Source: Cyanobium sp. CH-040
Lineage (GTDB): Bacteria > Cyanobacteriota > Cyanobacteriia > PCC-6307 > Cyanobiaceae
Length of the DNA stretch: 51,574 nt
NCBI RefSeq assembly: GCF_024346135.1
Contig: NZ_JAGQCJ010000018.1
Coordinates: 1 to 51,574, forward strand
Direction: 5' to 3'
Under the pieces are notes generated by a model, which searched no databases, was not told the DNA's origin, and worked only from the letters and a program-made list of their open reading frames with translations. Positions 7,491 through 29,426 of this stretch are shown in pieces (position 1 is the stretch's first letter; every line of letters starts with the position of its first letter). Made by a program: the position numbers and the translations under genes.

Positions 7491-7570
7491 CGCTCCGGGC
7501 TCGCCGCGGGGTGGATTCTGCACCGCTCACAGCGGCTGCAGCGCACCGTCCAGCCGGTGGCGAGTCATTC

Positions 7571-15686: not shown

Positions 15687-16214
15687 ATGAAAGAGCTCAC
15701 CCAGGCCATCAACAGCCACCTCGCCTCCGAATTCCAGGCCAGTCACACCTACCTGGCGATGTCGATCTGGCTGCGGGAGAAGGACCTGGCCGGGTTCTCG
15801 CAGTACATGCTCGAGAAGAGCAACGAGGAGCGGGGCCATGCCGCCCGCATGATCGCCTATCTGGTGGACTGCGACGAACCGGTGGAACTGCCCACCATCG
15901 AGGCCCCGGAGCGCAGCTGGCCCTCGGTGCAGCAGTTGTTCGACCAGATCTATGTGATGGAGAAGCAGGTCACCGCGTCGATCAACCGCCTCTACTCCCT
16001 GGCCGAGGACGCGGGCGAACGCAGCGCCTCGGCGATGCTGGACTGGTTCGTGAACGAGCAGATCCAGGAGGAGGCGGAGGCGCGCTTCGTGCTCAAGCGC
16101 CTGCGCCTCGCCGGCGACAACAGCGCCGCCCTGCTGCTGCTCGATCAGCAGTTCCTCGAGGGCAGCGCGCTCGCCCACGTGAAAGCGGGCATGACCACCT
16201 ACGGCGGTCAGTGA
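15687..16214 (+). CDS. ferritin, first gene of a ferritin-feoB2 operon
   Basis: This 175-residue non-haem ferritin stores iron as a 24-mer cage. All ferroxidase ligands align with E. coli FtnA at constant offset: Glu15, Glu48, His51, Glu92, Gln125, and the third-site Glu128. Tyr22 next to the site is also present, a residue used for radical chemistry in a studied Synechococcus ferritin. The ATG at 15687 (MKELTQ) matches the family N-terminus. The stop is only 7 bases before the ATG of a FeoB-type transporter, so uptake (or release) and storage of Fe2+ appear to be made from one mRNA. Confidence 0.92.
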   Translation: MKELTQAINSHLASEFQASHTYLAMSIWLREKDLAGFSQYMLEKSNEERGHAARMIAYLVDCDEPVELPTIEAPERSWPSVQQLFDQIYVMEKQVTASINRLYSLAEDAGERSASAMLDWFVNEQIQEEAEARFVLKRLRLAGDNSAALLLLDQQFLEGSALAHVKAGMTTYGGQ

Positions 16215-16221
16215 CCGCCCG

Positions 16222-18141
16222 ATGAAACGCTCCCGAGCCCTGGCGTGCGGCCGCCGACGGGGAGAAGGCTGGCATCGCCTCTGGACCAGCCCGCCGGGCT
16301 GCCATGGCGAGAAGGCCCCCCCGGAGGCGGCGGAGGCTGAGGCCGCCGACCTCACCGTGGCGCTGCTGGGCATGCCCAACACCGGCAAGTCCACCCTCTA
16401 CAACCGCCTCACCGGTGGCCATGCCCAGATCGCCAACTGGCCCGGGCTCACCGTGGAGCTGCTGAGCGGAGCGATGCCGGCCGACCGGCGCGGCCAGCAC
16501 TACACCCTGGTGGATCTGCCCGGCATCCACGACCTCAGCGGCAGCAGCGAGGACGAGGCGATCGTGCAGCGCTTCCTGCGCCACACCCCCCCCTCCCTCC
16601 TGCTGGTGGTGGTGAACGCCAGCCAGATCGTCAACCAGCTGCGCTTCCTGATGCAGCTGCGCCGGCTCGCCATCCCCATGGTGGTGGCGCTGAACATGAG
16701 CGACGAGGCGCGCCAGCTGGGCATCGGCATCGACCACCAGCGCCTCAGCGCCGAGCTGGGCCTGCCGCTGCTGCCGATCAGCGCCAAGCGCAGGCAGGGC
16801 ATCCACGAACTGATCGACGCCGTGCACCAGCTCGGCGAAGGGCTGGCGGCGGCCGGCTCCGGCGGCGGGTCCGGGCCGGGCGACCCGGATCTCGAGGCCC
16901 TGGCCGAACTCCTGGCCAGCCGCTGCGTGACGCTGCCGGAGCGGCTGATCAACCGCGGCACCCGCCGGGCCGACCGCCTGCTGATGCACCCGGTGGTGGG
17001 CCTGGTGGCCTTCCTCTTGATCGTGATGGCGATGTTCCAGCTGCTCTACGCGCTGGGCGCGCCTCTGCAGGATCTGCTGGGCAGCCTGTTCGACTGGATT
17101 CAGACGGCCCTGCTCGAGCCTTCGCTCGCCGCACTGGGCGCGCCGGAGTTCCTGCGCGGCTTCCTGGTGGACGGGGTGTGGCTGGGGGTGAGCACGGTGG
17201 CCACCTTCCTGCCGATCATCTTCCTCTTCTACGTGATCATGGCGGTGGTGGAGGACTCCGGCTATCTGCCCCGGGCCGCCTTCCTGATGGACGGCCTGAT
17301 GCGCTGGCTGGGCCTCGACGGCCGCGCCTTCGTGCTGCAGGTGATGGGGTTCGGCTGCAACGTGCCCTCGATCATGGGCACCCGCGTGATCCGTGACCGG
17401 GGCATGCGCCTGCTGGCGATGCTCTGCATTCCCTTTGCGCTCTGCCAGGCCCGCCTCACGGTGTTCATCTTCATGGCGGCGGTGTTCTTCCCGCGGCCGT
17501 GGTGGGCGCCGGGGCTGGTGGTGTTCGGCTTCTATGGGCTCAGTTTCCTGGCGGCGGTGATCACCGGGCTGCTGTTCAAGCGGGCCTTCCCCAGCCGGGA
17601 GGCCTTCGTGCTCGAACTGCCCCCCTACCGCTCCCCGAGCCTGAGCACGATTCTGCGCCGCGGCTGGACCTCGATGCTCAACTTCCTGGTCACCACGCGG
17701 GTGTTCATCGTCGTCGGCGCGGCGGCCATCTGGCTGCTCACCAACCTGCCGCCCGGGGCGGTGCAGGGCTCCGGGGACACCCTGGCCGACGGCATCGGTC
17801 AGCTGTTTCAGCCACTGCTGGTCCCCATCGGCATGAATCCGGCCCTCACCGTGTCGCTGTTCTTCGGCTTCATCGCCAAGGAGATCCTGCTGGGGGCGAT
17901 GGCGGTGATCTATGCCACCAGCGAGGCTGATCTGGGCGGTGTGATCGGCCAAGCGATCACGCCCCTGCAGGCCCTCAGCTTCATGACCTTCGTGCTGCTC
18001 TACACCCCCTGTCTGGGGACGGTGGCGGCGCAGCTGCAGGAATCGAAGAGCCGTGGCTTCACCGCATTGTCGCTGGGATGGTCACTCGCTCTGGCCTGGA
18101 TTCTGGCGCTGGTGGTGTACCAGGGTGGGCGTCTGCTTTAG
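16222..18141 (+). CDS. feoB: second FeoB-type ferrous iron transporter, short form
   Basis: At 639 residues it is about 160 shorter than the copy at 11.6-14.0 kb. An unusual N-terminal extension (Arg-rich, with Cys9 and Cys27) precedes the G domain: G1 GMPNTGKST (50-58), NWPGLTVE, DLPG, and G4 NMSD. The spacer is short. The membrane half has the first Gate motif with GFGCNVPSIMGTRV and the second with FALCQARLTVF and FIAKEILLGA. It is directly downstream of ferritin. Its likely FeoA partner is encoded on the opposite strand and overlaps it tail to tail by 4 bases. Codon use and GC match the genome, unlike copy 1. Confidence 0.9.
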   Translation: MKRSRALACGRRRGEGWHRLWTSPPGCHGEKAPPEAAEAEAADLTVALLGMPNTGKSTLYNRLTGGHAQIANWPGLTVELLSGAMPADRRGQHYTLVDLPGIHDLSGSSEDEAIVQRFLRHTPPSLLLVVVNASQIVNQLRFLMQLRRLAIPMVVALNMSDEARQLGIGIDHQRLSAELGLPLLPISAKRRQGIHELIDAVHQLGEGLAAAGSGGGSGPGDPDLEALAELLASRCVTLPERLINRGTRRADRLLMHPVVGLVAFLLIVMAMFQLLYALGAPLQDLLGSLFDWIQTALLEPSLAALGAPEFLRGFLVDGVWLGVSTVATFLPIIFLFYVIMAVVEDSGYLPRAAFLMDGLMRWLGLDGRAFVLQVMGFGCNVPSIMGTRVIRDRGMRLLAMLCIPFALCQARLTVFIFMAAVFFPRPWWAPGLVVFGFYGLSFLAAVITGLLFKRAFPSREAFVLELPPYRSPSLSTILRRGWTSMLNFLVTTRVFIVVGAAAIWLLTNLPPGAVQGSGDTLADGIGQLFQPLLVPIGMNPALTVSLFFGFIAKEILLGAMAVIYATSEADLGGVIGQAITPLQALSFMTFVLLYTPCLGTVAAQLQESKSRGFTALSLGWSLALAWILALVVYQGGRLL

Positions 18142-18359
18142 AAACTCACCTCCATCTCGGCGGCATGTTCATGGCGAATCATGAACTCCAGGATGCCGCA
18201 GGCCACATGCATGATGCCGCCAGGTCTGCCGCGCCGCAGCACCTCAACCTGGCTTCCGGGCCTGATGCCCATGGCCATGAGCCGGCTCCTGAGCATGGGC
18301 TGGGAGGGCAGCGATTCAATGCGGATGGAACGGCGTTCCGGGGCCAGACTGAGCGGCAT
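18138..18359 (-). CDS. feoA: FeoA single-domain protein (copy 2), antisense to feoB2
   Basis: This 73-residue SH3-like FeoA domain contains LRSRLMAMGIRPGSQVEVL, the family's core, and ends in IRHEHAAEMEVSF. The start at 18359 gives the normal FeoA length; an upstream ATG at 18413 would add an unrelated extension. It is convergent with feoB2 and shares four bases with it, an unusual arrangement because FeoA and FeoB are normally co-transcribed. It probably still serves FeoB2 but under its own promoter. Confidence 0.8.
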   Translation of the reverse strand: MPLSLAPERRSIRIESLPSQPMLRSRLMAMGIRPGSQVEVLRRGRPGGIMHVACGILEFMIRHEHAAEMEVSF

Positions 18360-18445
18360 GGGCGCTGGTCTTTCTGACTGCACTCTAGGACGCACCGGCG
18401 CCCAGGAACACACACGCTTCTGAGCACAATCCCCATCCGTGCATA

Positions 18446-18459
18446 ACCCCGATCGGGGT
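18446..18459. promoter_or_regulatory. 14-bp perfect palindrome upstream of feoA2 and flavodoxin
   Basis: ACCCCGATCGGGGT lies in the 249-base gap between the divergent feoA2 and flavodoxin genes. It could be an operator for either, but no known regulator motif matches and GC-rich palindromes are common in this genome. Confidence 0.3.
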
Positions 18460-18608
18460 CCGAGCGGATGGACGCCGCATCCAAGTGGATGGACCCGGCT
18501 CTGCTCCAGATCCCACTCCCAGGGGTGATCCCGGTCACCCGCGAGCGTGCCCGCCCGTAAACCCTGCGCCCCGTCGAATCGTTAGACCGGTGCGGCATTC
18601 GGAGAGCC

Positions 18609-19136
18609 ATGACGCTCACGATTTTTTACGCCACCTCCACCGGCAAGACCGAGGACATCGCCCAGCGGCTGGCGGCACTGCTGGGCGCGAACACTGACGT
18701 GCGCGATGTGGATTCCCTCGCATCCGCCGAGGACTTCTGTGCTGTCGACGCGATGGTGTGCTGTGTTCCCACCTGGAACACCGGTGCCGATTCGCTGCGC
18801 TCCGGCACCGCATGGGACACCTATGTGGAGGACATTGCAGACATCAGCCTGGCCGGCAAGCCGGTGGCGATCCTGGGCCTGGGTGATTCCTCCAGTTATG
18901 GCGACTACTTCTGTGATGCCATGGAGGAGCTCTATCGCGCCTTCGAGGCGGCCGGCGCCAGGATGGTGGGCAGCGTGCCGATCGATGGCTACACCTTCAA
19001 CGACTCCAAGAGCGTGATCAACGGCCGCTTCTGCGGCCTGCCGATCGATGAGGACAGCGAACCCGATCTCACCGATGAGCGCCTGGGCGCCTGGGCCAGG
19101 CAGCTGCAGCAGGACATGGCCGGGCAGCTGGGCTGA
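18609..19136 (+). CDS. isiB: long-chain flavodoxin
   Basis: The 175-residue flavodoxin carries FMN and replaces ferredoxin in photosynthetic electron transfer when iron is scarce. The phosphate loop TSTGKTED (residues 9-16) and the isoalloxazine-binding loops PTWNTG (Trp) and GLGDSSSYGDYF (Tyr) are present, as is the long-chain insertion (SVPIDGYTFNDSKSV). A GGAG lies six bases before the ATG. Its place inside an iron gene island, beside feoA2, supports control by iron; I do not see a clear Fur box. Confidence 0.95.
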   Translation: MTLTIFYATSTGKTEDIAQRLAALLGANTDVRDVDSLASAEDFCAVDAMVCCVPTWNTGADSLRSGTAWDTYVEDIADISLAGKPVAILGLGDSSSYGDYFCDAMEELYRAFEAAGARMVGSVPIDGYTFNDSKSVINGRFCGLPIDEDSEPDLTDERLGAWARQLQQDMAGQLG

Positions 19137-19217
19137 TCACCCGGTCGTCGTGCCGTCCTGTCCGGTTCCCGTCAGTGAGAATGGGCTCCGCACCCTGCGG
19201 TGCCGATCTCAGCGGAC

Positions 19218-19547
19218 ATGAACAGCCAGCAGCTGCAGGATCTCTGCCGGATCCTCACCATCGCCCACCACATCCCCGGGCGCATCCGCATCACCCTCGA
19301 CCGTTCCGCCCTGGCTGCGGACCGGGGGCTCGCGGTCGCCGATCTGGATGCCTTTCTCGCCTCCCTCGAGCGCCTGCAGGGCATCCAGGACGTGCGCCTC
19401 AATCCCATGGCGTACTCCTGCACGATCACCTACGACCCGGCGGCGATCGGCGCCGACGCCTGGGTGGCCCTGCTGGAGGGACGGGCGGATCAGGACGGGC
19501 ACCAGCTGGCCGAGCTGGTGCTGAGCTACGCCGAGCGGCTGGACTGA
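19218..19547 (+). CDS. cysteine-free HMA-like protein (FezC-like candidate)
   Basis: This 109-residue protein has one ferredoxin-like HMA-type fold: HHIPGRIRITL (about residues 15-25) as the first strand and turn, LERLQGIQDVRLNPMAYSCTITYDP (about 48-72) as the central part. The CxxC metal motif of normal HMA domains is missing; the only cysteines are isolated. The HxPGRxR and NPxxxS...Y.P pattern is that of degenerate HMA domains found beside P1B-type ATPases. Start is ATG 19218; a GTG at 19200 is possible. It ends inside the convergent ATPase gene (22-base overlap). Similar degenerate domains begin both ATPases nearby. Confidence 0.7.
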   Translation: MNSQQLQDLCRILTIAHHIPGRIRITLDRSALAADRGLAVADLDAFLASLERLQGIQDVRLNPMAYSCTITYDPAAIGADAWVALLEGRADQDGHQLAELVLSYAERLD

Positions 19548-22500
19548 TCCTTGCCGGTATGGGCGGCCGCGACCGCCGCCCCCAGTACCCCCACGGCCGT
19601 GGCCTGGGCCAGATCGGCGCCGGTCAGCGGCGTGCATCCGAAGGCGGCCGCCAGCGGCGGGGTCTGCACCAGGCCCGCCAGGCCCGCGTAGGAGCCCAGC
19701 GCGGCGGCGGTGGTCCTGAGGTCGCCCTGGCCGCTGGCCGCCATCTGGGTGAGCTGGCTGCCGATCAGGCTCACCAGACCCACCGTGTCGGCCGCCGCCG
19801 AACCACGGCTCTGGGCCAGGCCGCGGGAGACGGCCGCGGTGAGGGCGGTGACCAGGCCGCGGCGCAGGATGTCCCGGTCGAGGGTGTCGCCGAGGCTGGC
19901 CTCGGGTCCCTCCTCGGCCAGGTCGCGCTCCGCCCCCTCGCGGGGCGGCCGGGTGGCGATGGTCAGGGCCGGGGCCACGTCGGTGAGCAGGTTGGCCAGC
20001 AGCAGCTGGCGGGTGTTGAGCACCGAGCGCCCTTCGGCCAGGGCCGTGAGCACGGTGAAGCCGATCTCGCCGAGGTTGCCCCCCACCAGCAGCCCCACGG
20101 CGTCGCGCACCGAGCGCCACAGGTCGCGGCCCTCCAGCACCGCGCGGCCGATGGTCTCGATGCTGCCGTCGGTGACCACCAGATCGGCGGCCTGGCGGGC
20201 GGCATCGGTGGCGCGCTCCCCCAGGGCGATGCCCACCTGGGCCAGGCGGATCGCCGGGGCGTCGTTGGCGCCGTCGCCGCCCATCGCCACCATCCGTCCC
20301 GTCTGCTGCAGGGCCCGCACCAGCCGCAGCTTCTGCAGCGACGTCACCCGGGCGAACACCGAGGCCTCCAGGGCGGCCTGGCCCAGATCCGCATCGCCGA
20401 GCCGGTCGATCTCCGGCCCGGTCAGAACGGCGCCGCCGTCGGGGAGGTCGAGGGCGCGGGCGATCGCCCCGGCGCTGGCGGGATGGTCGCCGGTGATGAT
20501 CTTCACGGCGATGCCGGCCCGGCGCAGCTCATCCACCGCCGCCCGGGCCGTGGGCCGGATCGGATCGCTGAACACCACCAGACCCGCGAAGCGGAGTTCC
20601 GCCACCAGGCCGTCATGGAGGGTTGCGTCAGCCGGCAGCTCGCGCCGGGCCACCGCCAGCACCCGCATCCCCCGCTCCGCCAGGGCGAGGGCCGCGGCGG
20701 CGGCTTCGCCCCGGGGGTTGCCGCAGGCCGCCAGCACCACGTCAGGCGCCCCCTTGACGCAGAGCTGCAGCGGGGCGTCGTCGCCGCTTGTCGCCGCGCG
20801 TCCGAGGTTGGCGTGGTAGCCCCGCGCCGGCTCGAACGGCAGGGTCTGGAGCACCTCCCAGCTCCGGTGGTCCAGCCCGGCCAGCAGCGCGCCCTCGAGC
20901 AGGGCCCGGTCGGTGGGATGGGCCAGGGGCCGGTCGGCCTCCGGCGTGGGGGTGGCCCAGAGGGCCAGCTGCAGCACCGCTTGCGCCGCGTCGGGCAGCC
21001 CGGCCGGTTCGCACGCCTGCCCCTCGGCCCACACCTGCACCAGCTGGATCCGGCCGGAGGTGAGCGTGCCGGTCTTGTCCAGGCAGAGCACGTTCACCCG
21101 GCCGAGGGCCTCCAGGGCCCTGGGGTTGCGCACCAGCACGCCGTGGTGGGCCAGGCGGTCGGCGGCGGCGCCCTGTGCCAGGTTGGCCAGCACCGGCAGG
21201 CCCTCCGGCACAGCAGCCACGGTGAGGGCCACTCCCTCCGCCAGGGCGGAGCGGGGATCCTGGCCGCGGGCGAGGGCGGCGAGCAGCAGCGCCACGCCCC
21301 CCAGCGCCGCCACGGGGGTGGTGCTGTCGGTGAGGCCGGCCAGGCGGGCCTCCACACCGCCGCTGACGCTGGCCTCCTGCGCTGCGGCCAGGCTGCGCCG
21401 GGCCTCGGTGGCCAGGCCCACGGCCACCACCACGGCGCTCGCCTGCCCCGCCACCACCGTGGTGCCCTGGTAGAGCATCGAGCGCCGGTCCGCCAGGGCC
21501 GCCTCCCGGCAGGGGGCCGGATCCTTGTCCACCGGGAACGACTCGCCAGTGAGCACCGCCTCGTCCACCTGCAGCCCGCAGGCCTGGATCAGCCGGCAGT
21601 CGGCCGGCACCACCTCCCCGGCTTCGAGCACCACCACGTCGCCCTCCAGCAGCTCCACCTCGCTGATCCGCTCCAGGACGCCCCCGCGCCGCACCCAGAC
21701 GTCGGCGGTGTGCCGGTCCTGCAGCAGCTCCAGCCGCCGCTCCACCTGCAGCCTCTGGCCGGCCCCCACCAGGGCGTTCAGCCCCAGCACCCCCAGGATC
21801 AGCCCGGCATCGGCAGGAGCACCGACGATGCCCGACAGGGCCGCGCCGGTGGCCAGCACCGGGGTGAGCGGGTTGTCCAGTTCGGCCAGCACCAGGGAGC
21901 CCAGGGCGGAGGGCGGGGAGCCGAGATCGGGTGACGAGCTGCCCCCTGGGCGCCCGTGGTCGGGCCGGCGCCGGCGCAGCTGCTCCGCATCCAGCCCTTC
22001 GGGCCCGCTGGCCAGCCGGCGGAGGGCCTCCTCGGCCGCCAGGGCATGCCAGGCCGTGGTGGCCGCGGCGGGCAGCGGCGCGCGGCCCTCGAGGCGGCGG
22101 GCCAGGCGCAGGCCGTTGCCGATCGCCACCAGGGAGAGCAGGTTCGTGGCCTGGTTGATGCCCGCGCTGGTGAGGGTGCCGAGGCCTTCGAGCGCCAGGG
22201 CCAGGCCCACCACCGCATCGAGCAGCGACGCCTGCACCCCCTGCTCGGCGCAGCGCCGGGCGGCCGCGCAGGCCGGCAGCAGCAGCCAGGCCACCTCCAC
22301 GCCCGCCGGCGCGATCAGGTGGGCCTGCCAGGGCGGCGGCTGGCCGTCCTCGTGCAGACCGATGGCCAGGTCGGCAGCGGCGAGGGCGGCGGCATTCCCA
22401 CCGCCGAGCAGCAGCACGCCGCGCCCCTGGAGCTGGAGGTCGTGGATGGCGGCTGCGCCCGCCGGAATCACCGCATCGACGCGGGCCGCCGTGGCCTCCG

Positions 22501-23692
22501 CCAGAGGTTGTGCGCTGGCCACCACGGCACGCAGGCCCGCCTGGCGGATCGCCGCCAGCAGTCCATCCCCCCAGATCGACTCCAGCAGGGCGGGCTCCAG
22601 CACCACGGTGTCGATGCGATCGAGGCGTTCCAGTGCCGCCGGATCGAGCAGCAGGGCCCCCATCGCCTCCAGGCGCCGGCCGATCTCCAGGCAGAAGGCG
22701 CTGCGGCCCAGCTGGGCCGGTCTGGGCAGACCGGCCAGGATCGCCGCGGCCGGTCCCTCCACGCGCCGCAGGGTCGCCACCCCCCAGCCGAAGGCCGCCA
22801 GGGAGAGCAGGGTGGCCCTCTCGCCATAGCGCTCGATCGGCCCGTCCGGCAGGGGCCTGGGGCGGGGGCCCGGCTCGCTGACCTGTTCCGGGTGGTCCTC
22901 GGGCCGGGCGTTCCAGGCGGCCTCCACCTGCTGCCATCGCCGCCGGTGCTGCAGGCGGGCGCGCAGCCGCAGGCCCTCCTCCAGAAGCCCCACCAGCGGC
23001 CCGGCCAGTCCCCGCAGCAGGGCGTAGTCGAGCGAATCCACCAGGCGCAGCAGCAGCTCGGCGGTGCCGCTGCCCAGGCGGCGATCGAGGCTGGCGCGCA
23101 GGGGCGGCAGGGTTTCCAGCACCCGCAGGGCCGCCGCCAGGTCGATGCCCAGCTGACGGCTGCCGGGGCGGTTCTGCAGGGCCAGACCCAGCCCCGTGCC
23201 GGCCAGCTCGGCGACGATCTCGGCGATCGAGCGCAGGACCGGTTCCAGATCGGCCGGGTGATCCGGCGTCGGGGTGGCGGCGACGCCATCCAGCTGGCGT
23301 TCGAGTTCCGCCAGCCGCTCCAGCAGGACGGTGGTCTCGCCTTCGCTTTCGCCCTGGGTGGCGGGGCCGTCGATCACCACCCGACGGGTGGCGGCATTCC
23401 AGCGGGCCCAGTTCACCCCCGGCTGGTCGCCCAGGGTCTGGCGGATGGCGGCGGCGAAGGCCGCCTCCGCCGCCGAGCCCGCGGCCGGGGCCTGGGCGCT
23501 CACATGCAGGCGTCCGTTGCCCTGCCAGCGGCGGCGCCCCCGGCCCCGGGCGGCGTCCAGCAGCAGCGAGGCCAGATCGCCCGGTCCGAAGCCCATGGCC
23601 TGCAGGGAACGCCCCTCTGCACTGGCTCCAGCCTGGCAGGCAACGGCGGCCCCGGCCGCCGGCCCTAGCCTGGATTCATTCGACGATTCCAT
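19526..23692 (-). CDS. giant CtpI-like P-type ATPase with embedded dead P1B ATPase module
   Basis: The 1388-residue protein resembles mycobacterial CtpI/CtpH. Residues about 58-115 form a Cys-less HMA-like domain. About 300-480 align with the P-domain of a P1B ATPase, but the catalytic DKTGT is replaced by EPALL (near 363) and GDGxND by GGGNAA (near 432), so it cannot work. A complete P2-like pump follows: TGES near 714, PEGLP near 828, phosphorylation site DKTGT with Asp872, KGAPD, and GDGANDAP near 1137, then C-terminal membrane helices. PEGLP resembles Ca2+-type pumps. It starts 17 bases from the divergent ferritin-like gene. The ion is unknown; context suggests iron. Confidence 0.88.
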   Translation of the reverse strand: MESSNESRLGPAAGAAVACQAGASAEGRSLQAMGFGPGDLASLLLDAARGRGRRRWQGNGRLHVSAQAPAAGSAAEAAFAAAIRQTLGDQPGVNWARWNAATRRVVIDGPATQGESEGETTVLLERLAELERQLDGVAATPTPDHPADLEPVLRSIAEIVAELAGTGLGLALQNRPGSRQLGIDLAAALRVLETLPPLRASLDRRLGSGTAELLLRLVDSLDYALLRGLAGPLVGLLEEGLRLRARLQHRRRWQQVEAAWNARPEDHPEQVSEPGPRPRPLPDGPIERYGERATLLSLAAFGWGVATLRRVEGPAAAILAGLPRPAQLGRSAFCLEIGRRLEAMGALLLDPAALERLDRIDTVVLEPALLESIWGDGLLAAIRQAGLRAVVASAQPLAEATAARVDAVIPAGAAAIHDLQLQGRGVLLLGGGNAAALAAADLAIGLHEDGQPPPWQAHLIAPAGVEVAWLLLPACAAARRCAEQGVQASLLDAVVGLALALEGLGTLTSAGINQATNLLSLVAIGNGLRLARRLEGRAPLPAAATTAWHALAAEEALRRLASGPEGLDAEQLRRRRPDHGRPGGSSSPDLGSPPSALGSLVLAELDNPLTPVLATGAALSGIVGAPADAGLILGVLGLNALVGAGQRLQVERRLELLQDRHTADVWVRRGGVLERISEVELLEGDVVVLEAGEVVPADCRLIQACGLQVDEAVLTGESFPVDKDPAPCREAALADRRSMLYQGTTVVAGQASAVVVAVGLATEARRSLAAAQEASVSGGVEARLAGLTDSTTPVAALGGVALLLAALARGQDPRSALAEGVALTVAAVPEGLPVLANLAQGAAADRLAHHGVLVRNPRALEALGRVNVLCLDKTGTLTSGRIQLVQVWAEGQACEPAGLPDAAQAVLQLALWATPTPEADRPLAHPTDRALLEGALLAGLDHRSWEVLQTLPFEPARGYHANLGRAATSGDDAPLQLCVKGAPDVVLAACGNPRGEAAAAALALAERGMRVLAVARRELPADATLHDGLVAELRFAGLVVFSDPIRPTARAAVDELRRAGIAVKIITGDHPASAGAIARALDLPDGGAVLTGPEIDRLGDADLGQAALEASVFARVTSLQKLRLVRALQQTGRMVAMGGDGANDAPAIRLAQVGIALGERATDAARQAADLVVTDGSIETIGRAVLEGRDLWRSVRDAVGLLVGGNLGEIGFTVLTALAEGRSVLNTRQLLLANLLTDVAPALTIATRPPREGAERDLAEEGPEASLGDTLDRDILRRGLVTALTAAVSRGLAQSRGSAAADTVGLVSLIGSQLTQMAASGQGDLRTTAAALGSYAGLAGLVQTPPLAAAFGCTPLTGADLAQATAVGVLGAAVAAAHTGKDQSSRSA

Positions 23693-23709
23693 GAAGACGG
23701 GACATCACT

Positions 23710-24309
23710 ATGACGAGATGCCGTGATCCCTTTGCTGATCCCATGCCAGATCCCGCTCCCGAGACTCCCCATCAGGGGACTGCGCAGCCCCACGACCGCG
23801 AGCGGCTCCGTGCCGTGCTGGAGGAGGCCATCCATGACGAATACAAGGCCCGGGCCACCTACCGCCAGGTGATCGCCCGCTTCGGGCCCGTGCGCCCGTT
23901 CCTGCCCATCCTGGCTTCGGAGCAGCGCCACATCGAGGCCCTCACCGGCCTGTTCCGGCGCCACGGCCTGTCGGTTCCGGCCGATGACTGGGAGCAGCGG
24001 GTGACGGTGCCCGACTCCGTGCAGGAGGCCTGCAGGGGGGGCGTTCAGGGGGAGATCGAGAACGCCGCGCTCTACGACCGGCTGCTGGAGCAGTCCGTGG
24101 CCTACCCCGATGTGCAGCGTGTGCTGCGCAACCTGCGGCGGGCGTCCCAGGAGAACCACCTGCGCGCCTTCCAGCGCTGCGCGGAGCGTCAGGCCGGAAC
24201 CGGTCGAACCGGTCATGGACGCCGGCACCGGGGCGGGCGCGGATCGCACGCTGACGGATCCGCCGGCAGCCGCGGCCGGGGCGCCGATCGGCTCGGCTGT
24301 CGAGGGTGA
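23710..24309 (+). CDS. ferritin-like di-iron protein (DUF2202-like)
   Basis: The four-helix-bundle core spans about residues 30-157. Di-iron ligand candidates are Glu44 (HDEYKARATY), Glu71 and His74 (SEQRHIEAL), Glu115/Glu117 (GEIENAALYDRLLE) and His150 (QENHLRAF). The SEQRHIEAL and NHLRAF motifs are those of DUF2202 proteins. After residue 157 the frame becomes Arg/Gly/His-rich, while another frame in the same stretch reads as a more natural Asp/Ala/Pro-rich tail, so the true C-terminus may be changed by a frameshift near 24190. ATG 23710 is used; ATG 23743 is an alternative. Divergent from the giant ATPase and upstream of the membrane protein and P1B ATPase. Confidence 0.75.
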   Translation: MTRCRDPFADPMPDPAPETPHQGTAQPHDRERLRAVLEEAIHDEYKARATYRQVIARFGPVRPFLPILASEQRHIEALTGLFRRHGLSVPADDWEQRVTVPDSVQEACRGGVQGEIENAALYDRLLEQSVAYPDVQRVLRNLRRASQENHLRAFQRCAERQAGTGRTGHGRRHRGGRGSHADGSAGSRGRGADRLGCRG

Positions 24310-24507
24310 CATCGGCTACAGGCCGATGTTCCGATCGCGCCTCCCGCGGGCCTGTCCTCGCATCCGTACAGCGCCGGGATTACGGCTTCCCCTGCAGCAT
24401 TGCTACGGTCGGCCCAGGCCTGCAACGGCCCCAGCTCACCGCTGGATCCCGGACAGGCCGGATGCCCGGCACCGCTGGATTTCCGACCTCTCTGGGCAAC
24501 CACAGCT

Positions 24508-24954
24508 TTGGGCTCTGACAAGGACGACAAGGGCACGATCGATCAGGACCTGCTGGAGGCGGCCCTGCGACGTCTTCTCGGCACCGGTGACGGAGGGCCG
24601 ATGCCGCCTCCCCCCGCGGGCTGGGGCTATCCGCCTCCGGGCCAGGCCTGCGGCTGGTGGGCGCCACCGGGTTACCCCCCCTGGGGTGGGGCCATGCCCC
24701 CGCCCGGTTATCCCGCAGGCCCTGGTCAGGGCAACGCACAGGCTGGCAGCGGCTTCCAGCAGGCCCTGATCTGGGCGGCCCTCGGTGCCGCCGCCGCCTG
24801 GGTGCTCAGCGATCCGGAGGTGCGCGACAAGCTGATCAAGCAGGCCATGAAGCTCTACGGCGAACTGGTGGTGGGCATCGAGGAGATGAAGGAGAAGGTG
24901 TCCGACATGAAGGCCGAGGTGGATGCAGGCTTCACCCGCAACAGCGCCGGCTGA
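24508..24954 (+). CDS. Pro/Gly-rich membrane protein with coiled-coil tail
   Basis: About 148 residues in three parts: an N-terminal acidic helix (TIDQDLLEAALRRLLG); a low-complexity Pro/Gly/Tyr/Trp region with PPPAGWGYPPPG and PPGYPPWGG; and a C-terminal helix with small residues (WAALGAAAAWVL) running into an amphipathic coiled coil (LYGELVVGIEEMKEKVSDMK). No ATG is available; I use TTG at 24508, but the frame is open to another TTG at 24400. It overlaps the start of the P1B ATPase gene by 32 bases, so the two are co-translated. I do not recognise a named family. A membrane-bending or scaffolding role is my inference from its shape. Confidence 0.65.
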   Translation: MGSDKDDKGTIDQDLLEAALRRLLGTGDGGPMPPPPAGWGYPPPGQACGWWAPPGYPPWGGAMPPPGYPAGPGQGNAQAGSGFQQALIWAALGAAAAWVLSDPEVRDKLIKQAMKLYGELVVGIEEMKEKVSDMKAEVDAGFTRNSAG

Positions 24955-27217
24955 GGCCGGCGGAGCCGCCCGCGGCCTGAGGGCCCGCTGGCTGGAGGGG
25001 CTGGAGCGCCTGCACGTGCTCGAAAACCGCGTGCGCTGGGCCTACACCCTTCCCGAGGGCGTCAGCCACGCCCCGCGGCAACTCGCCGCCGCCATCGGCC
25101 AGTTCGACGGCGTGCTCAGCGCCCGGGAGAACCCCGTGCTGCGTTCGCTGGTGGTGGTGTTCGACAGGACGCGCACCAGCGTCGAATCGCTGGAAGATCA
25201 GCTGCTCTCCCTGGTGGCCCCCCTGCCGCGCGGAGCACCGGCAGTGCCTCTGCACGCCAGCGGCCTGGCCTGGCTGCCGGTGGGGCTGTCCCTGCTGAAT
25301 CTGATCGCCGGCCGCTTCCTGTCCCGCCAGGCCCAGCTGGCCGCCACCGCGGCGATCGCCTGGCCCATCTGGCGGCAGGCCGCCGCGGATGTCGGCCGCC
25401 TGCATCTGGGCTCCCACCTGCTGGAGGCCACGGCGGTGCTGGTGTCGCTGCGTCAGCGCGACCTCACGGCGGCCAACGCCACCACCTTCCTGCTGCTGCT
25501 GGCCGAGGTGCTGGAGGAGAGCATCGGCCGCCGCTCCGATGCCCTGCTGCTCAGCCTGCTGCGGCCCATGGAGGGCCAGGTGTGGGTGCTGCGCGAGGGG
25601 GTGGAGATGCAGATGCCGCTGGCGGAGCTGCGGGGCGGCGAGACCGTGGTGCTCACCGCCGGCGCGATCGTGCCGGTGGACGGCACCGTGCTGGGCGGCC
25701 AGGCCACGCTGAACGAGGCCGCCATGACCGGCGAGAGCCGGCCCACCGCCAAGGAGCGGGGTGATTCCGTGCTCTCCGGCACGGTGGTGGAGGAGGGGCG
25801 GTTGCTGGTGTACGCCGAGCAGGTGGGAGCCGAGACGGCCGCCGCCAAGATCTCGGCCTTCGTGCGCGACTCGCTCGCCTCCCGCAGCGCCGTGCAGCTC
25901 CAGGCCTCCCGGCTGGCGGATCGGCTGGTGCCGGCGGTGTTCGGCCTGGCGGGTCTCACCCTGCTGTTCTCGCGCAGCTGGCGCCGCACCGCGGCGGTGC
26001 TGCAGGCCGACTACTGCTGTGCCCTCAAGCTCTCGATGCCCGTGGCCTTCAAGGCGGCCATGGCCCGGGCCGGCTCCCAGGGCGTGCTGGTGAAGGGCGC
26101 CAGCGCCCTGGAACGGCTGGCCCAGGCCGACACCGTCGTGTTCGACAAGACCGGCACGCTCACCACCGGCCGGCTGGAGGTGAGCGACACGATCTCCTTC
26201 GACAGCGCCTACAGCCCCGCCGACATCCTCAACCTGGCGGCCTCGATCGAGGAGCATGCCGTCCATCCCGTGGCCCTGGCGGTGGTGGAGGCGGCCCGGG
26301 GCCAGGGCTACCGCCATTTCGAGCACACCCAGGTGGAGTTCGTGGTGGCCCACGGGGTGGCCTCGGCCATCGGCGATCAGCGCGTGGTGGTGGGATCGCC
26401 GCACTTCGTGCTCGAGGACGAAGGCATCGACCCCAGGCCCCATCAGGCGGCGATCGAACCGTTGCTGGCCGCCGGCAAGACCCTGCTGCCCATCGGCTTC
26501 GCCGGCCGCCTGATCGGTGTGGTGGCCCTGCAGGACCAGCTGCGCACCAACAGCCGGGCCACCGTGGAGCGGCTGCGTGCCCTCGGTGCCCGCCGTGTGC
26601 TGATGCTCAGCGGTGACCGGCCGGAGGTGGCCGAGCGGATGGGCGCGTCCTGCGGTCTCGACGGCGTTCACGCCGGGCTGCTGCCGGCCGACAAGGCCCG
26701 GATCGTCGCGGAGCTGATCGCCGCGGGCTCCCGGGTGGTGTTCGTCGGTGATGGGATCAACGATGCCCCGGCTCTGGCGGGGGCCAGTGTGGGGATCGCC
26801 ATGAGCCGGGGAGCCGAAGTGGCCCGCCTCTCGGCCGACATCACCCTGCTCGATGACGACATCGCCCGCGTCGCGGACGTGAAGGCGATCGCCAACGCCA
26901 CCATGGCCCGCATCGACGCGAACTATCTGGCGACCGTGGGCATCAACAGCGGCATCCTCGGTGCCGCGGCCATGGGCTGGCTGTCACCGGTGCGCTCCTC
27001 GCTGCTGCACAACGGAAGCACGGTGGCGATCCTGCTCAGCGCCCTGGCCACCGCTTCGGGCGCCACCCCGGGCCGTGGCGATGCAGCCCTTGATGTTCCA
27101 GTGGACGAAGACAGACCTGCGGAACCGGTGCTGACTCGAGCCGAACCCCCTGACCAGGACCGTCCCCATCAGGACGGCCCGGAAGCGCACAGCACTCCGG
27201 GCCGGTTCGTGTTCTGA
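24923..27217 (+). CDS. P1B-type metal ATPase with CCALKLSMP motif (FezB-like candidate)
   Basis: The 764-residue P1B ATPase begins with a Cys-less HMA-like domain (about residues 30-95). The actuator TGES is at 269-272, the transmembrane metal motif is YCCALKLSMP (Cys365, Cys366, Pro373) instead of CPC, phosphorylation site DKTGT has Asp408, the P1B-specific His-Pro lies in HAVHPVAL near 447, and GDGIND is at 609-614. The Cys-Ala-Leu-x-Leu-Ser-x-Pro type motif resembles the P1B-6 group that includes ferrosome FezB, rather than Cu, Zn or Co pumps. The hydrophilic C-terminus after about 700 is Pro/Asp-rich. Its start overlaps the upstream membrane-protein gene. Confidence 0.85.
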   Translation: MQASPATAPAEAGGAARGLRARWLEGLERLHVLENRVRWAYTLPEGVSHAPRQLAAAIGQFDGVLSARENPVLRSLVVVFDRTRTSVESLEDQLLSLVAPLPRGAPAVPLHASGLAWLPVGLSLLNLIAGRFLSRQAQLAATAAIAWPIWRQAAADVGRLHLGSHLLEATAVLVSLRQRDLTAANATTFLLLLAEVLEESIGRRSDALLLSLLRPMEGQVWVLREGVEMQMPLAELRGGETVVLTAGAIVPVDGTVLGGQATLNEAAMTGESRPTAKERGDSVLSGTVVEEGRLLVYAEQVGAETAAAKISAFVRDSLASRSAVQLQASRLADRLVPAVFGLAGLTLLFSRSWRRTAAVLQADYCCALKLSMPVAFKAAMARAGSQGVLVKGASALERLAQADTVVFDKTGTLTTGRLEVSDTISFDSAYSPADILNLAASIEEHAVHPVALAVVEAARGQGYRHFEHTQVEFVVAHGVASAIGDQRVVVGSPHFVLEDEGIDPRPHQAAIEPLLAAGKTLLPIGFAGRLIGVVALQDQLRTNSRATVERLRALGARRVLMLSGDRPEVAERMGASCGLDGVHAGLLPADKARIVAELIAAGSRVVFVGDGINDAPALAGASVGIAMSRGAEVARLSADITLLDDDIARVADVKAIANATMARIDANYLATVGINSGILGAAAMGWLSPVRSSLLHNGSTVAILLSALATASGATPGRGDAALDVPVDEDRPAEPVLTRAEPPDQDRPHQDGPEAHSTPGRFVF

Positions 27218-27245
27218 GGGGCCGGGCCCGAGCGGCCCGGTCTCA
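27215..27245. terminator. bidirectional hairpin between convergent ATPase and ferritin genes
   Basis: CCGGGCC (27222-27228) pairs perfectly with GGCCCGG (27234-27240) around a 5-base loop, extended by TGAG/CTCA. It fills the 32-base gap between the P1B ATPase stop and the ferritin stop. No U-run is present on either side. Confidence 0.55.
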
Positions 27246-27249
27246 GGGC

Positions 27250-27828
27250 TCAGGCCAGCTTGGCCGGATCGTGCTTGCCGTCGCTGAGCTCGCCATCGAT
27301 GATCAGCAGCGCCGCCGGCTGGTTCTGGGCGAAGCGCACCCGGCCCAGCAGATGGGCGAAGGTGTTCTCGGAGTTCACCTGGTTGTCCACCAGGGGGTCG
27401 AGGAACACCGTGGTGCGGGTGTCACCCGAGCGCTCGGCCATGGCGTACATCTGCTGGAGCGAGGTGGTGACATCCGCCTCCATCTGGAAGGAGGCCGCCA
27501 GGATCTCCTCGGGCGACTGCCAGGCCTGGGCGGGTGCCGGCACGTCCTGCAGCACCACCGTCTGTCCGCGGGCGATCAGATAGTCGGCGAACGTACCGGC
27601 GTGCTCCTGCTCATCACGGGATTCGTGCTTGAAGAAATGGGAGAAACCGCGCAGTTCACGCTCGGCGAACCAGATGGCCATGGCGAAGTAGGCCGCGCTG
27701 GCCTTGCGTTCCATTGTGAGGTGCTGCTGGAGGGCCTCCAGCAGGGCCGCTTCCATGGGCTGGGCCATGGCCCGGCCCGCAGGGCCGGCGCTGACGGTGG
27801 TGGGGGTGGAGCTGCCGGTGGAGATCAT
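27250..27828 (-). CDS. second ferritin, with N-terminal extension
   Basis: The 192-residue ferritin has a 25-residue Ser/Thr/Ala-rich extension before the cage domain. Ferroxidase ligands Glu40, Glu73, His76, Glu117 and Gln150 have exactly the same spacings as in the ferritin at 15.7 kb, but the third-site Glu is replaced by Ser153 (Glu154 is next to it). The extension could be trimmed if an in-frame ATG (MAQPMEA, residue 21) is the real start. It converges on the P1B ATPase gene and has a 412-base upstream region with hairpins and an opposite-strand terminator. Confidence 0.9.
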   Translation of the reverse strand: MISTGSSTPTTVSAGPAGRAMAQPMEAALLEALQQHLTMERKASAAYFAMAIWFAERELRGFSHFFKHESRDEQEHAGTFADYLIARGQTVVLQDVPAPAQAWQSPEEILAASFQMEADVTTSLQQMYAMAERSGDTRTTVFLDPLVDNQVNSENTFAHLLGRVRFAQNQPAALLIIDGELSDGKHDPAKLA

Positions 27829-27978
27829 CGAAATAGGGAAGCGAAGGCTGAAGGGGCTGGCTCAAGGAGCTGAGTGGCTTGCGCGCCAGGGGTGCGGGTT
27901 GCGCTCTGGAGCAGAGGCCGGAACCGAGCGCTGATGTCCGGGATCAGAAAGCCCGCTGAGCGTTGACGTGAGCGGGCT

Positions 27979-28008
27979 GATCTGGGTGCTGATGATCTGG
28001 GTGCTGAT
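27979..28008. repeat. perfect 15-bp tandem duplication
   Basis: GATCTGGGTGCTGAT occurs twice head to tail (27979-27993 and 27994-28008), within the ferritin leader and next to the preceding hairpin. Confidence 0.85.
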
Positions 28009-28057
28009 CTGAATCCCGCACTGGCAAGGGTGAATTGATGTAAGAAATGATACATCG

Positions 28058-28082
28058 CCTGCCCGCTGCAGGCAGGGTTTTT
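28058..28082 (+). terminator. orphan plus-strand Rho-independent terminator
   Basis: CCTGCC (28058-28063), a 7-base loop and GGCAGG (28071-28076) are followed by GTTTTT. Both flanking genes are on the minus strand, so this terminator would end an unannotated plus-strand transcript. Confidence 0.65.
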
Positions 28083-28101
28083 GAGGTGTGATTTTCACCA
28101 G

Positions 28102-28147
28102 CCAGTTGCGAATGAGTGGCAGTTGCTGTAGTGCCATTCATTGCTGG
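28102..28147. other. long imperfect hairpin between queD and ferritin
   Basis: AATGAGTGGCA (28111-28121) pairs with TGCCATTCATT (28132-28142) with one G-T wobble, flanked by CCAG/CTGG. On the minus strand it lies about 95 bases past the queD stop; no U-run follows on that strand. Confidence 0.5.
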
Positions 28148-28240
28148 TTTCCCCGGCCTGTCCTGCTGCCGGTTCCGGTTGCGATCGGTGCCCGGGAGTG
28201 TCGGTTTGGTCACGCCCTTCGGCAGGAGGCCGCACCCGGT

Positions 28241-28711
28241 TCAGGACCCGGCGGCGAACCAGGCCGGCAGGGCCTCGTAGCAGGCCGCGTTCTTCTCGTT
28301 CTCGCGGGCCTCGCTTCTCCAGCAGCAGGTGCGTCCGCCGTCGCGGGCGAGCAGCAACTCGTTGGCCCAGCCCCACACCAGCTCGGCGCTGCTCTCCATG
28401 CCCACGTTGGCCATCACCCGCAGATCGAGGGCGCCCTGCTCATGGAGCTGCCGCCAGGTGGGCAGCAGGGGATCGTCGGCGCTGGCCAGGAAGGTGTGGT
28501 CGAACTGCTCCGCCAGCCGCCGCTCCAGCTCGCGCAGCCCGGAGAAGTCCACCACGAAGCCGTTTTCGTCGAGGGCGGTGGCCCGGAACCAGAAGTGGAA
28601 GCTGCGGCTGTAGCCGTGCACGAAGCGGCAGTGGCCGGCGTGCCGCCACTGACGGTGGGTGCAGGGGTAGCCGCTGAAGGTCTTGCTGCAGCTGTGGACC
28701 GGTGAGGACAT
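28241..28711 (-). CDS. queD: 6-carboxytetrahydropterin synthase-like protein (QueD/PTPS family)
   Basis: This 156-residue T-fold protein belongs to the QueD/6-pyruvoyl-tetrahydropterin synthase family, acting in queuosine or pterin biosynthesis. [13 protein letters not shown] (about residues 26-38) corresponds to the catalytic Cys and zinc-site segment; the usual HGH is HGY here, so one classical zinc His is Tyr. [10 protein letters not shown] and the FDHTFLA segment match the family's second half. The ATG at 28711 overlaps the ATG of hisIE on the other strand. Whether it makes preQ0 precursor or another pterin is undecided. Confidence 0.8.
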
Positions 28712-29426
28712 GGGGGAAGATCGAGGCAGCGGCAGCGCCTGGGCCTTGCAAGCATCATTCCAGTCCCCGGATCCGGCGTTCATCGCCGGCCTGCGCTTCA
28801 ACGAGGCCGGCCTGATCCCGGCCATCGCCCAGGACTGGCTCGACGGCGCCGTGCTGATGGTGGCCTGGATGAACCGGGAGGCGCTGGAGCGCACAGTTGA
28901 AAGCGGCGAGGTGCACTACTGGAGCCGCTCCCGCGCCGAGCTCTGGCACAAGGGCGCCACCAGCGGCCACATCCAGACCCTGCGGGGCCTGCGCTACGAC
29001 TGCGACGCCGATGTGCTGCTGCTCACGGTCGAGCAGCGCGGCGATGTGGCCTGCCACACCGGCGCCCGCAGCTGCTTCTACGACGACGGCCCCACGCCCA
29101 CTGCCGGTGGGGCCACGGCGCCGCCGCCGCCGGCCGATGTCTGCACCGAGCTGATGCGGGTGATCGAGGGGCGCCGCGACCACCCCGAACCCGGCAGCTA
29201 CACCAACAGGCTGCTGGAGGGGGGCGACAACCGCATCCTCAAGAAGATCGGTGAGGAGAGCGCCGAGTTCGTGATGGCCTGCAAGGACGGCGATCCTGCC
29301 GAGATCGCCGGCGAGGCGGCCGACCTCCTGTTCCACCTGCAGGTGGCCCTGGCCCACCACGGGGTGAGCTGGCGGGATGTGCAGCAGGTGCTGGCCGGGC
29401 GCCGCGGTGCGCCCAGGCGGGAGTGA
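28710..29426 (+). CDS. hisIE: HisIE, phosphoribosyl-AMP cyclohydrolase / phosphoribosyl-ATP pyrophosphatase
   Basis: This 238-residue bifunctional enzyme catalyses steps 2 and 3 of histidine biosynthesis. The HisI domain (about 20-130) carries [16 protein letters not shown] and the zinc/active-site motif [13 protein letters not shown]; the HisE domain (about 145-232) carries [14 protein letters not shown] and [14 protein letters not shown] purine-rich GGTGAGG sits four bases before the ATG at 28710; a TTG at 28746 is an alternative that would free space from the divergent queD. Both domains are complete. Confidence 0.93.

Follow-up and report, generated by a model that had tools for sequence, protein, structure and literature searches.

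The stretch of DNA studied here, which we call the window, is a contig of 51,574 nucleotides from Cyanobium sp. CH-040 (NZ_JAGQCJ010000018.1, assembly GCF_024346135.1). Inside an iron island of this contig lies a block of five genes (19137..27249), which encode an HMA_2-like small protein, a CtpI-like giant P-type ATPase, a DUF2202 ferritin-like protein, a YtxH-like protein and a P1B ATPase. An initial annotation had seen in these genes, together with the ferritin, Feo and flavodoxin genes around them, a possible ferrosome-like (Fez) iron compartment system. The named genes are real: all of the open reading frames (ORFs) are present, the five of the block are all open, and Pfam and NCBIfam back the assignments, for the HMA_2-like and YtxH-like proteins below their cut-offs. 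The block is missing from the orthologous site of a genome of the same genus, G003. In a blastn comparison, window positions 18578-19136 (flavodoxin) align with G003 at 87.7% and positions 27250-27799 (ferritin) at 84.6%; the gap between the two matches is 52 bp in G003 versus 8,113 bp in the window. Since flavodoxin and ferritin adjoin in G003 and are this far apart here, the HMA_2-like, CtpI-like, DUF2202, YtxH-like and P1B genes form one discrete block.

The P1B ATPase (764 amino acids; 24923..27217 on the plus strand, 24923-27214 in the profile scan) matches TIGR01525 with E = 1.6e-133, and its catalytic motifs are intact (TGES at residue 269, DKTGT at 408, HPVAL, which is the P1B HP motif, at 448 and GDGIND at 609). 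In the fourth transmembrane helix (TM4) the motif CCALKLSMP begins at residue 365, in the context DYCCALKLSMP; the pattern of the related ATPases at this place is DY[SCA]C[AP]xK[LF], and the helix holds CCA and no CPC or SPC. TM6 (LLHNGSTVAILL) contains an HN motif (HNGST at residue 696), and a highly conserved HN motif in TM6 is given as a feature of the P1B-6 class (PMC9374683). The N-terminal region is HMA-like and has no CxxC.

A maximum-likelihood tree was calculated from 50 rows: 24 ATPases of this type, 6 of the TGxR type or similar, and 20 of the CPC type, the latter being every fourth of a set of 70 (with CPC, CPG, CPH or SPC) plus three paralogues from the Cyanobium genome, all with CPC. 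The 24 ATPases of the window type form one group with support 100/99, and the CPC-type rows form a separate group with support 100/100. The window ATPase pairs with the one from G065, another genome of the family, and next with those of Azospirillum, Sinirhodobacter and two genomes of the order of Bosea. Because of the CCALKL in TM4, the HN motif in TM6 and the position in the tree, we assign the ATPase to a P1B-6-like class outside the CPC-type clade. As judged from motifs and tree, it is not a CPC/SPC-type (Cu/Zn/Co) pump, just as the initial annotation had supposed. FezB is a P1B-6 ATPase. Two filamentous cyanobacteria, Baaleninema and Tolypothrix (L014, L015), have a different P1B-type ATPase with DF[MA]TGIR in TM4, and HMA_2-like ORFs lie near the one in L015. 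These TGxR-type ATPases were rejected as equivalents of the window ATPase; they form a separate clade and have no YtxH-like neighbour.

The specificity of P1B ATPases cannot be read from the sequence with certainty, and the cadmium-family subfamily model of NCBIfam also scores above its own cut-off for the window protein. Both points would fit a pump that transports a different metal (Zn, Ni, Co or Mn) and lies in the iron island by chance. We consider such a pump very doubtful, since its TM4 is without CPC/SPC, its clade is apart from the CPC-type pumps, and several of its relatives are flanked by iron genes: an iron ATP-binding cassette transporter in the Azospirillum operon (L089), FeoA and TonB receptors in L090 and FeoB in L011. 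Furthermore, the genes rpa2333-2338 fell in low light along with iron genes in Rhodopseudomonas (PMC6879726).

The partners of the P1B ATPase recur beside its relatives. Using a YtxH-like profile built from nine sequences on the ORFs within 3.5 kb of each ATPase (flanks are short in some loci), we found a YtxH-like ORF near 22 of the 23 other ATPases of this type, versus none of the 70 CPC-type and none of the 6 other ATPases; after leaving out the eight seed loci, 14 of 15 related ATPases still have one. The lone miss is L137, where no YtxH-like gene adjoins the P1B-6-like ATPase and a short ORF immediately downstream resembles, by eye, a piece of FeoB. HMA_2-like ORFs occur near 17 of the 23, versus 1/70 and 2/6, and among the 17 the match in G065 is the N-terminal region of the ATPase itself, read in another frame. 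DUF2202 is found near three, namely in L091, L011 and L010 (in the last as an incomplete ORF), and FezC-like ORFs lie near six, in one case (L109) on the opposite strand. Note that the seeds of the HMA_2, DUF2202 and FezC-like profiles were taken from the same loci as were counted. The order is the same in a gammaproteobacterial locus (L011) and in Arcobacter (L091): HMA_2, DUF2202, small protein(s), YtxH-like, ATPase, FezC-like. The proteins 3' of the ATPase in L010 and L011 are DUF4405-like by weak Pfam matches (E = 0.011 in L011 and 0.073 in L010, with an unrelated model marginally ahead in the latter), and L091 has a homologue of them. In Pseudomonadota and Campylobacterota, HMA_2, DUF2202 and YtxH-like genes group with ATPases of this type, which is more than chance.

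A further family, glycine-rich and apparently with two helices, is encoded near 19 of these 23 ATPases. Of nine members tested, five match the NCBIfam model of the magnetosome protein MamC (NF038051) with E-values from 2.4e-12 to 2.7e-5 (L136:5587-5922, L136:4132-4542, L010:537-896, L091:8205-8555 and L011:8960-9367, all from Proteobacteria), a sixth reaches E = 0.34 and the other three give no match. Even the highest score, 47 bits, stays below the cut-off of 100. These proteins are MamC-like, not MamC. Because MamC-like proteins occur in the related operons, the comparison suggests parts in common between the gene sets of ferrosome-type systems and those of magnetosomes; a literature search on MamC with P-type ATPase and magnetosome gave nothing.

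In the window, the YtxH-like gene (24508..24954, plus strand) overlaps the P1B ATPase gene. Its product of 148 amino acids has a short hydrophobic stretch and no His, and it aligns with 10 homologues encoded beside the same ATPase type, with 53% identity over 57 amino acids in Azospirillum and 47% over 149 columns in G065. The match to YtxH is weak (24508-24951, E = 0.028, far under the cut-off). The initial annotation had described a Pro/Gly-rich membrane protein with a tail: the Pro/Gly-rich composition and the tail, which is rich in E/K, are there, while the membrane location is a prediction. In a Kyte-Doolittle scan the hydrophobic stretch stays under a mean of 1.5 over 19 residues, but the scan is so insensitive that it yields only 3 segments in the P1B ATPase.

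A P1B pump that is encoded with a one-helix, charged-tail protein is also known from the PacL/CtpC effluxosomes of Mycobacterium tuberculosis, and CtpC shares the HN in TM6. PacL consists of one TM helix and a Glu/Ala-rich cytosolic part that is needed for pump clustering (PMC9374683, PMC13043812), a layout similar to that of the YtxH-like family, and genes for the PacL-related DUF6110 proteins typically accompany those of P1B-6 pumps (PMC9374683). By analogy, the block could be a plasma-membrane platform for Fe(II) export without any organelle, on which the YtxH-like protein clusters the pump, as PacL clusters CtpC/CtpG in mycobacteria, and which protects against iron excess; the lack in the Cyanobium genome of FezC-like genes and in the window of MamC-like ones, which would suggest an organelle, agrees with this. 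We nevertheless hold an export platform to be rather unlikely. Among the matches listed for 11 YtxH-like members there is none to DUF1490 or DUF6110 (YtxH appears in four and DUF5132 in five, all weak). A PacL protein would have the DUF1490 domain and a metal-binding motif at its C-terminus, whereas the window protein is free of His; and unlike CtpC, which has CPC in TM4, the window pump has CCA. Several related operons, moreover, contain MamC-like and DUF4405-like proteins.

The HMA_2-like protein (19218..19547, plus strand, 19218-19544 in the profile scan; 109 amino acids) has the motif HHIPGRIR and matches PF19991 with E = 3.7e-6, its 27.4 bits being below the cut-off of 30. It was initially called an HMA-like protein without Cys; it does lack CxxC, but two Cys are present. 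It is 50% identical over 92 amino acids to the product of a gene in the Azospirillum operon, and homologues are also encoded in L009, L011 and L091.

The DUF2202 ferritin-like protein (23710..24309, plus strand, 23710-24306 in the profile scan; 199 amino acids) scores 30.6 bits against PF09968, with a cut-off of 22. Its homologues in L011 (40% over 130 amino acids) and L091 (33% over 135) both adjoin the ATPase. The AlphaFold2 model, for which a two-sequence alignment was the input, is a four-helix bundle (helices 27-58, 64-84, 104-128 and 133-163) with a block-mean predicted local distance difference test (pLDDT) score of 91-97 over residues 31-160. A Foldseek search with this model gave 3q4n as the best match (E = 9.9e-4, TM-score 0.60 by query length), the sole one at E <= 0.001, followed by YciE and ferritins; with the sequence, the PDB gave no match at E <= 1. 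The conserved residues are DEY, ExxH, an E in the third helix and an H in the fourth, and they would fit a predicted di-iron site.

The larger ATPase (19526..23692, minus strand, 19529-23692 in the profile scan; 1388 amino acids), which we take to be CtpI-like and have named so, is of type II/III-like build (PF00122, PF00702 and PF00689; PEGLP and DKTGT), and TGES, DKTGT and GDGAND are intact. It is 59% identical over 1369 amino acids to its copy in G065. It resembles the CtpI-like giant ATPase of Streptomyces fungicidicus (1442 amino acids) in size, in PEGLP and in 41% identity over 1156 columns, but the annotation of the Streptomyces record shows no iron or Fez-type gene for about 6 kb around it. 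In the 11 genomes or records searched, the full-length protein was found in Cyanobium sp. CH-040 and G065 only, with six partial and three empty results among the other nine, and outside these two cyanobacteria it is not supported as a core component. The expectation that the neighbours are conserved with the P1B ATPase is thus borne out for HMA_2, DUF2202 and YtxH-like genes, which recur in other phyla, but not for this gene. ARAGORN predicts a tRNA-Ser inside it (20814-20906), which is probably spurious; none is predicted in the G065 counterpart. One could imagine that an oxygenic phototroph has a new type of iron compartment served by two pumps. The FezB-type ATPase would fill it with Fe(II), the giant CtpI-like ATPase would bring in protons or a second cation to balance the mineral or polyphosphate, and a DUF2202 ferroxidase would stand in for the FezC cytochrome, oxygen being at hand. 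We regard such an arrangement as improbable.

The surrounding iron island (15690..19136) consists of a ferritin (15690-16211), FeoB (16222-18138), FeoA on the minus strand (18141-18413) and the flavodoxin (18609-19133). On the other side, the gene of a second ferritin, Ftn2 (27250..27828, minus strand, 27253-27828 in the profile scan; PF00210), is convergent with the P1B ATPase gene and lies outside the block. A search for sigma-70 promoters at 18000-28500 gave none, with 0.3 expected. We fetched the hisIE-adjoining stretches of 11 same-genus genomes, some of them short. The order of the island is identical in G003, and also, minus the flavodoxin, in G004, G009 and G010, where FeoA and Ftn2 adjoin without the block; Ftn2 is present in all four. 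In the stretches of the other seven, some short, no iron-island genes were found. Four genomes of the genus thus have ferritins and Feo genes but no block, and one of the four also has the flavodoxin. The initial annotation had named these genes along with the cluster; we rejected them as parts of the module. They are the surroundings of the block and serve as context only. From this distribution, a gain of the block in the lineage of Cyanobium sp. CH-040, probably horizontal, is a simpler reading than its loss in the relatives.

The P1B ATPase is very rare in cyanobacteria. At E <= 1e-90, only two genomes among 400 of the family have it (G000, which is the Cyanobium genome studied here, and G065). 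It was likewise found in 1 of 386 genomes sampled across the phylum (again G000); the two samples overlap. This threshold should catch the clade, because a member with 40% identity scored 1e-123. In the class of Bosea lupini 1 of 385 genomes matches at E <= 1e-120. When 397 genomes of the order of Bosea were searched with the ATPase of Azospirillum, 14 had a match at E <= 1e-110. The operon is present in two photosynthetic genomes of that order, G1176 and G1212 (5.1-5.2 Mb), and the G1212 cluster comprises, by eye, about eight genes. A reaction centre (PF00124) was found in 7 of 10 tested proteobacterial genomes with this ATPase (G1176, G1212, G1427, G1148, G1189, G1188 and G732); G000 has four PF00124 matches, and Synechococcus elongatus alone was positive among 14 control genomes. 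The module may therefore be common in phototrophs. In G065 the YtxH-like and P1B ATPase genes are divergent from the full-length CtpI-like gene and convergent on a ferritin gene, an arrangement that the window shares. The G065 stretch gave no HMA_2 or DUF2202 gene.

How do these genes compare with ferrosome operons? Six fez genes, RPA2333-2338, underlie the ferrosomes of Rhodopseudomonas palustris CGA009 (PMC12016538). Given these ferrosomes and the fall of rpa2333-2338 in low light, the operon of G1176 and G1212 is an indirect link to a Fez reading. Likenesses to the fez operons are the P1B-6-type motifs, a small accessory protein beside the ATPase, and HMA_2 proteins and iron genes near the relatives. 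The YtxH-like gene, which overlaps the ATPase gene and recurs near 22 of the 23 relatives, is a candidate counterpart of FezA, the small accessory membrane protein; the comparison is by position and not by the FezA sequence. More generally, the likeness to Fez is by features and descriptions, not by named Fez sequences, and about eight genes in G1212 stand against six fez genes. Another close parallel is a six-gene operon on plasmid p3 of Azospirillum brasilense (L089), together with related operons from Arcobacter (L091) and Cereibacter (L090): they share homologues of the HMA_2, YtxH-like and ATPase genes with the window, and the L089 ATPase is 54% identical over 697 columns and 59% over the core. 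They differ from the window in gene order, and L089 also encodes a two-helix protein and an HMA_2 protein whose tail is FezC-like.

Several observations weigh against a Fez-type system. In the whole Cyanobium genome there is no FezC-like match at E <= 1, a search in which the control, G1484, was found at 2.2e-6; G729, which has the ATPase, also gave none. FezC is a DUF4405-like cytochrome (PMC10979944). It is part of the ferrosome operons of Desulfovibrio magneticus and Desulfurispirillum indicum. FezC is perhaps not universal; the proteins named for Clostridioides difficile are FezA and FezB (PMC12574912). No MamC-like ORF was found in the window, which was all that was searched for it. While Fur repression of fez is reported in C. 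difficile (PMC12574912), no Fur-box-like site with at least 12/19 matches was found at 18000-29000, a scan that would miss divergent cyanobacterial boxes. In the whole window 16 sites reach this score, versus 0 to 6 in 20 shuffles, and four reach 13/19 (three inside feoB, one at 7566). A search for sigma-70 promoters at 18000-28500 gave none, with 0.3 expected. Further differences from ferrosome operons are the extra CtpI-like ATPase and the oxygenic host. The window DUF2202 protein is without the hydrophobic C-terminal segment that is present in L011 and L091, and the N-terminal motif of the window ATPase is degenerate (HVLENRVRW, versus HxxPGRxR in the relatives). The label "FezB-type" rests on motifs, tree and partners. 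Finally, at E <= 1e-100 none of the 12 further genomes of the genus has the ATPase (two are less than 80% complete), and in G065 its gene (L093:12083-14262) reads in two frames in a single-contig genome, from either a sequencing error or decay.

Some of these points could also be taken as signs of a decaying island that has lost its MamC-like and FezC-like parts and no longer functions: partners are missing, the N-terminal motif is degenerate, the G065 gene reads in two frames, and only 1 of 13 same-genus genomes has the block ATPase. We think that there is little chance of this, since the five ORFs in the window are open, the motifs TGES, DKTGT and GDGIND (GDGAND in the larger protein) are intact in both ATPases, and the CtpI-like, YtxH-like and P1B ATPase genes keep their relative arrangement in G065.

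The sequence itself shows which class the ATPase belongs to, which partners recur with it and that the block sits within an iron island. The block is one of a recurring, ATPase-centred family of modules, probably of the Fez type. The links to known ferrosomes are indirect: the P1B-6 features, the DUF4405-like neighbours, the iron genes near the relatives and the presence of the operon in photosynthetic genomes. The MamC-like proteins also speak for a Fez-type reading. Our preferred explanation, with a probability of roughly one half (0.52), is that an oxygenic cyanobacterium carries, in this block, a Fez-type module for iron sequestration that is reduced and rearranged and was probably acquired by horizontal transfer. 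A Fez-like system as initially proposed thus has the ATPase class and the recurring partners on its side, while FezC-like, MamC-like and Fur-box elements were not found where they were sought. A membrane vesicle in Cyanobium is plausible.

In such a Fez-type module, the P1B-6-like ATPase would be driven by ATP and would carry ferrous iron from the cytosol through the predicted site formed by CCALK in TM4 and HN in TM6. The iron would go into the lumen of a membrane that is clustered into patches or vesicles with the help of the YtxH-like protein, which might act through its short hydrophobic stretch and its E/K-rich tail. The HMA_2 protein without CxxC and the HMA-like region of the ATPase may be adaptors or regulators and not Cu/Zn-binding domains. 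The DUF2202 protein would oxidise or buffer iron, and the surrounding Feo importers and ferritins would feed and back up the system.

In the parts of the literature on ferrosomes and cyanobacteria that we found, no cyanobacterial ferrosome is described, and the known ferrosomes are tied to anaerobes or to anaerobic growth. Being compact, the block lends itself to tests, and the genus offers a natural relative in which the site is empty. If the Fez-type reading is true, it would point to membrane-enclosed iron storage in addition to ferritin also in an aerobic, iron-demanding photosynthetic setting.

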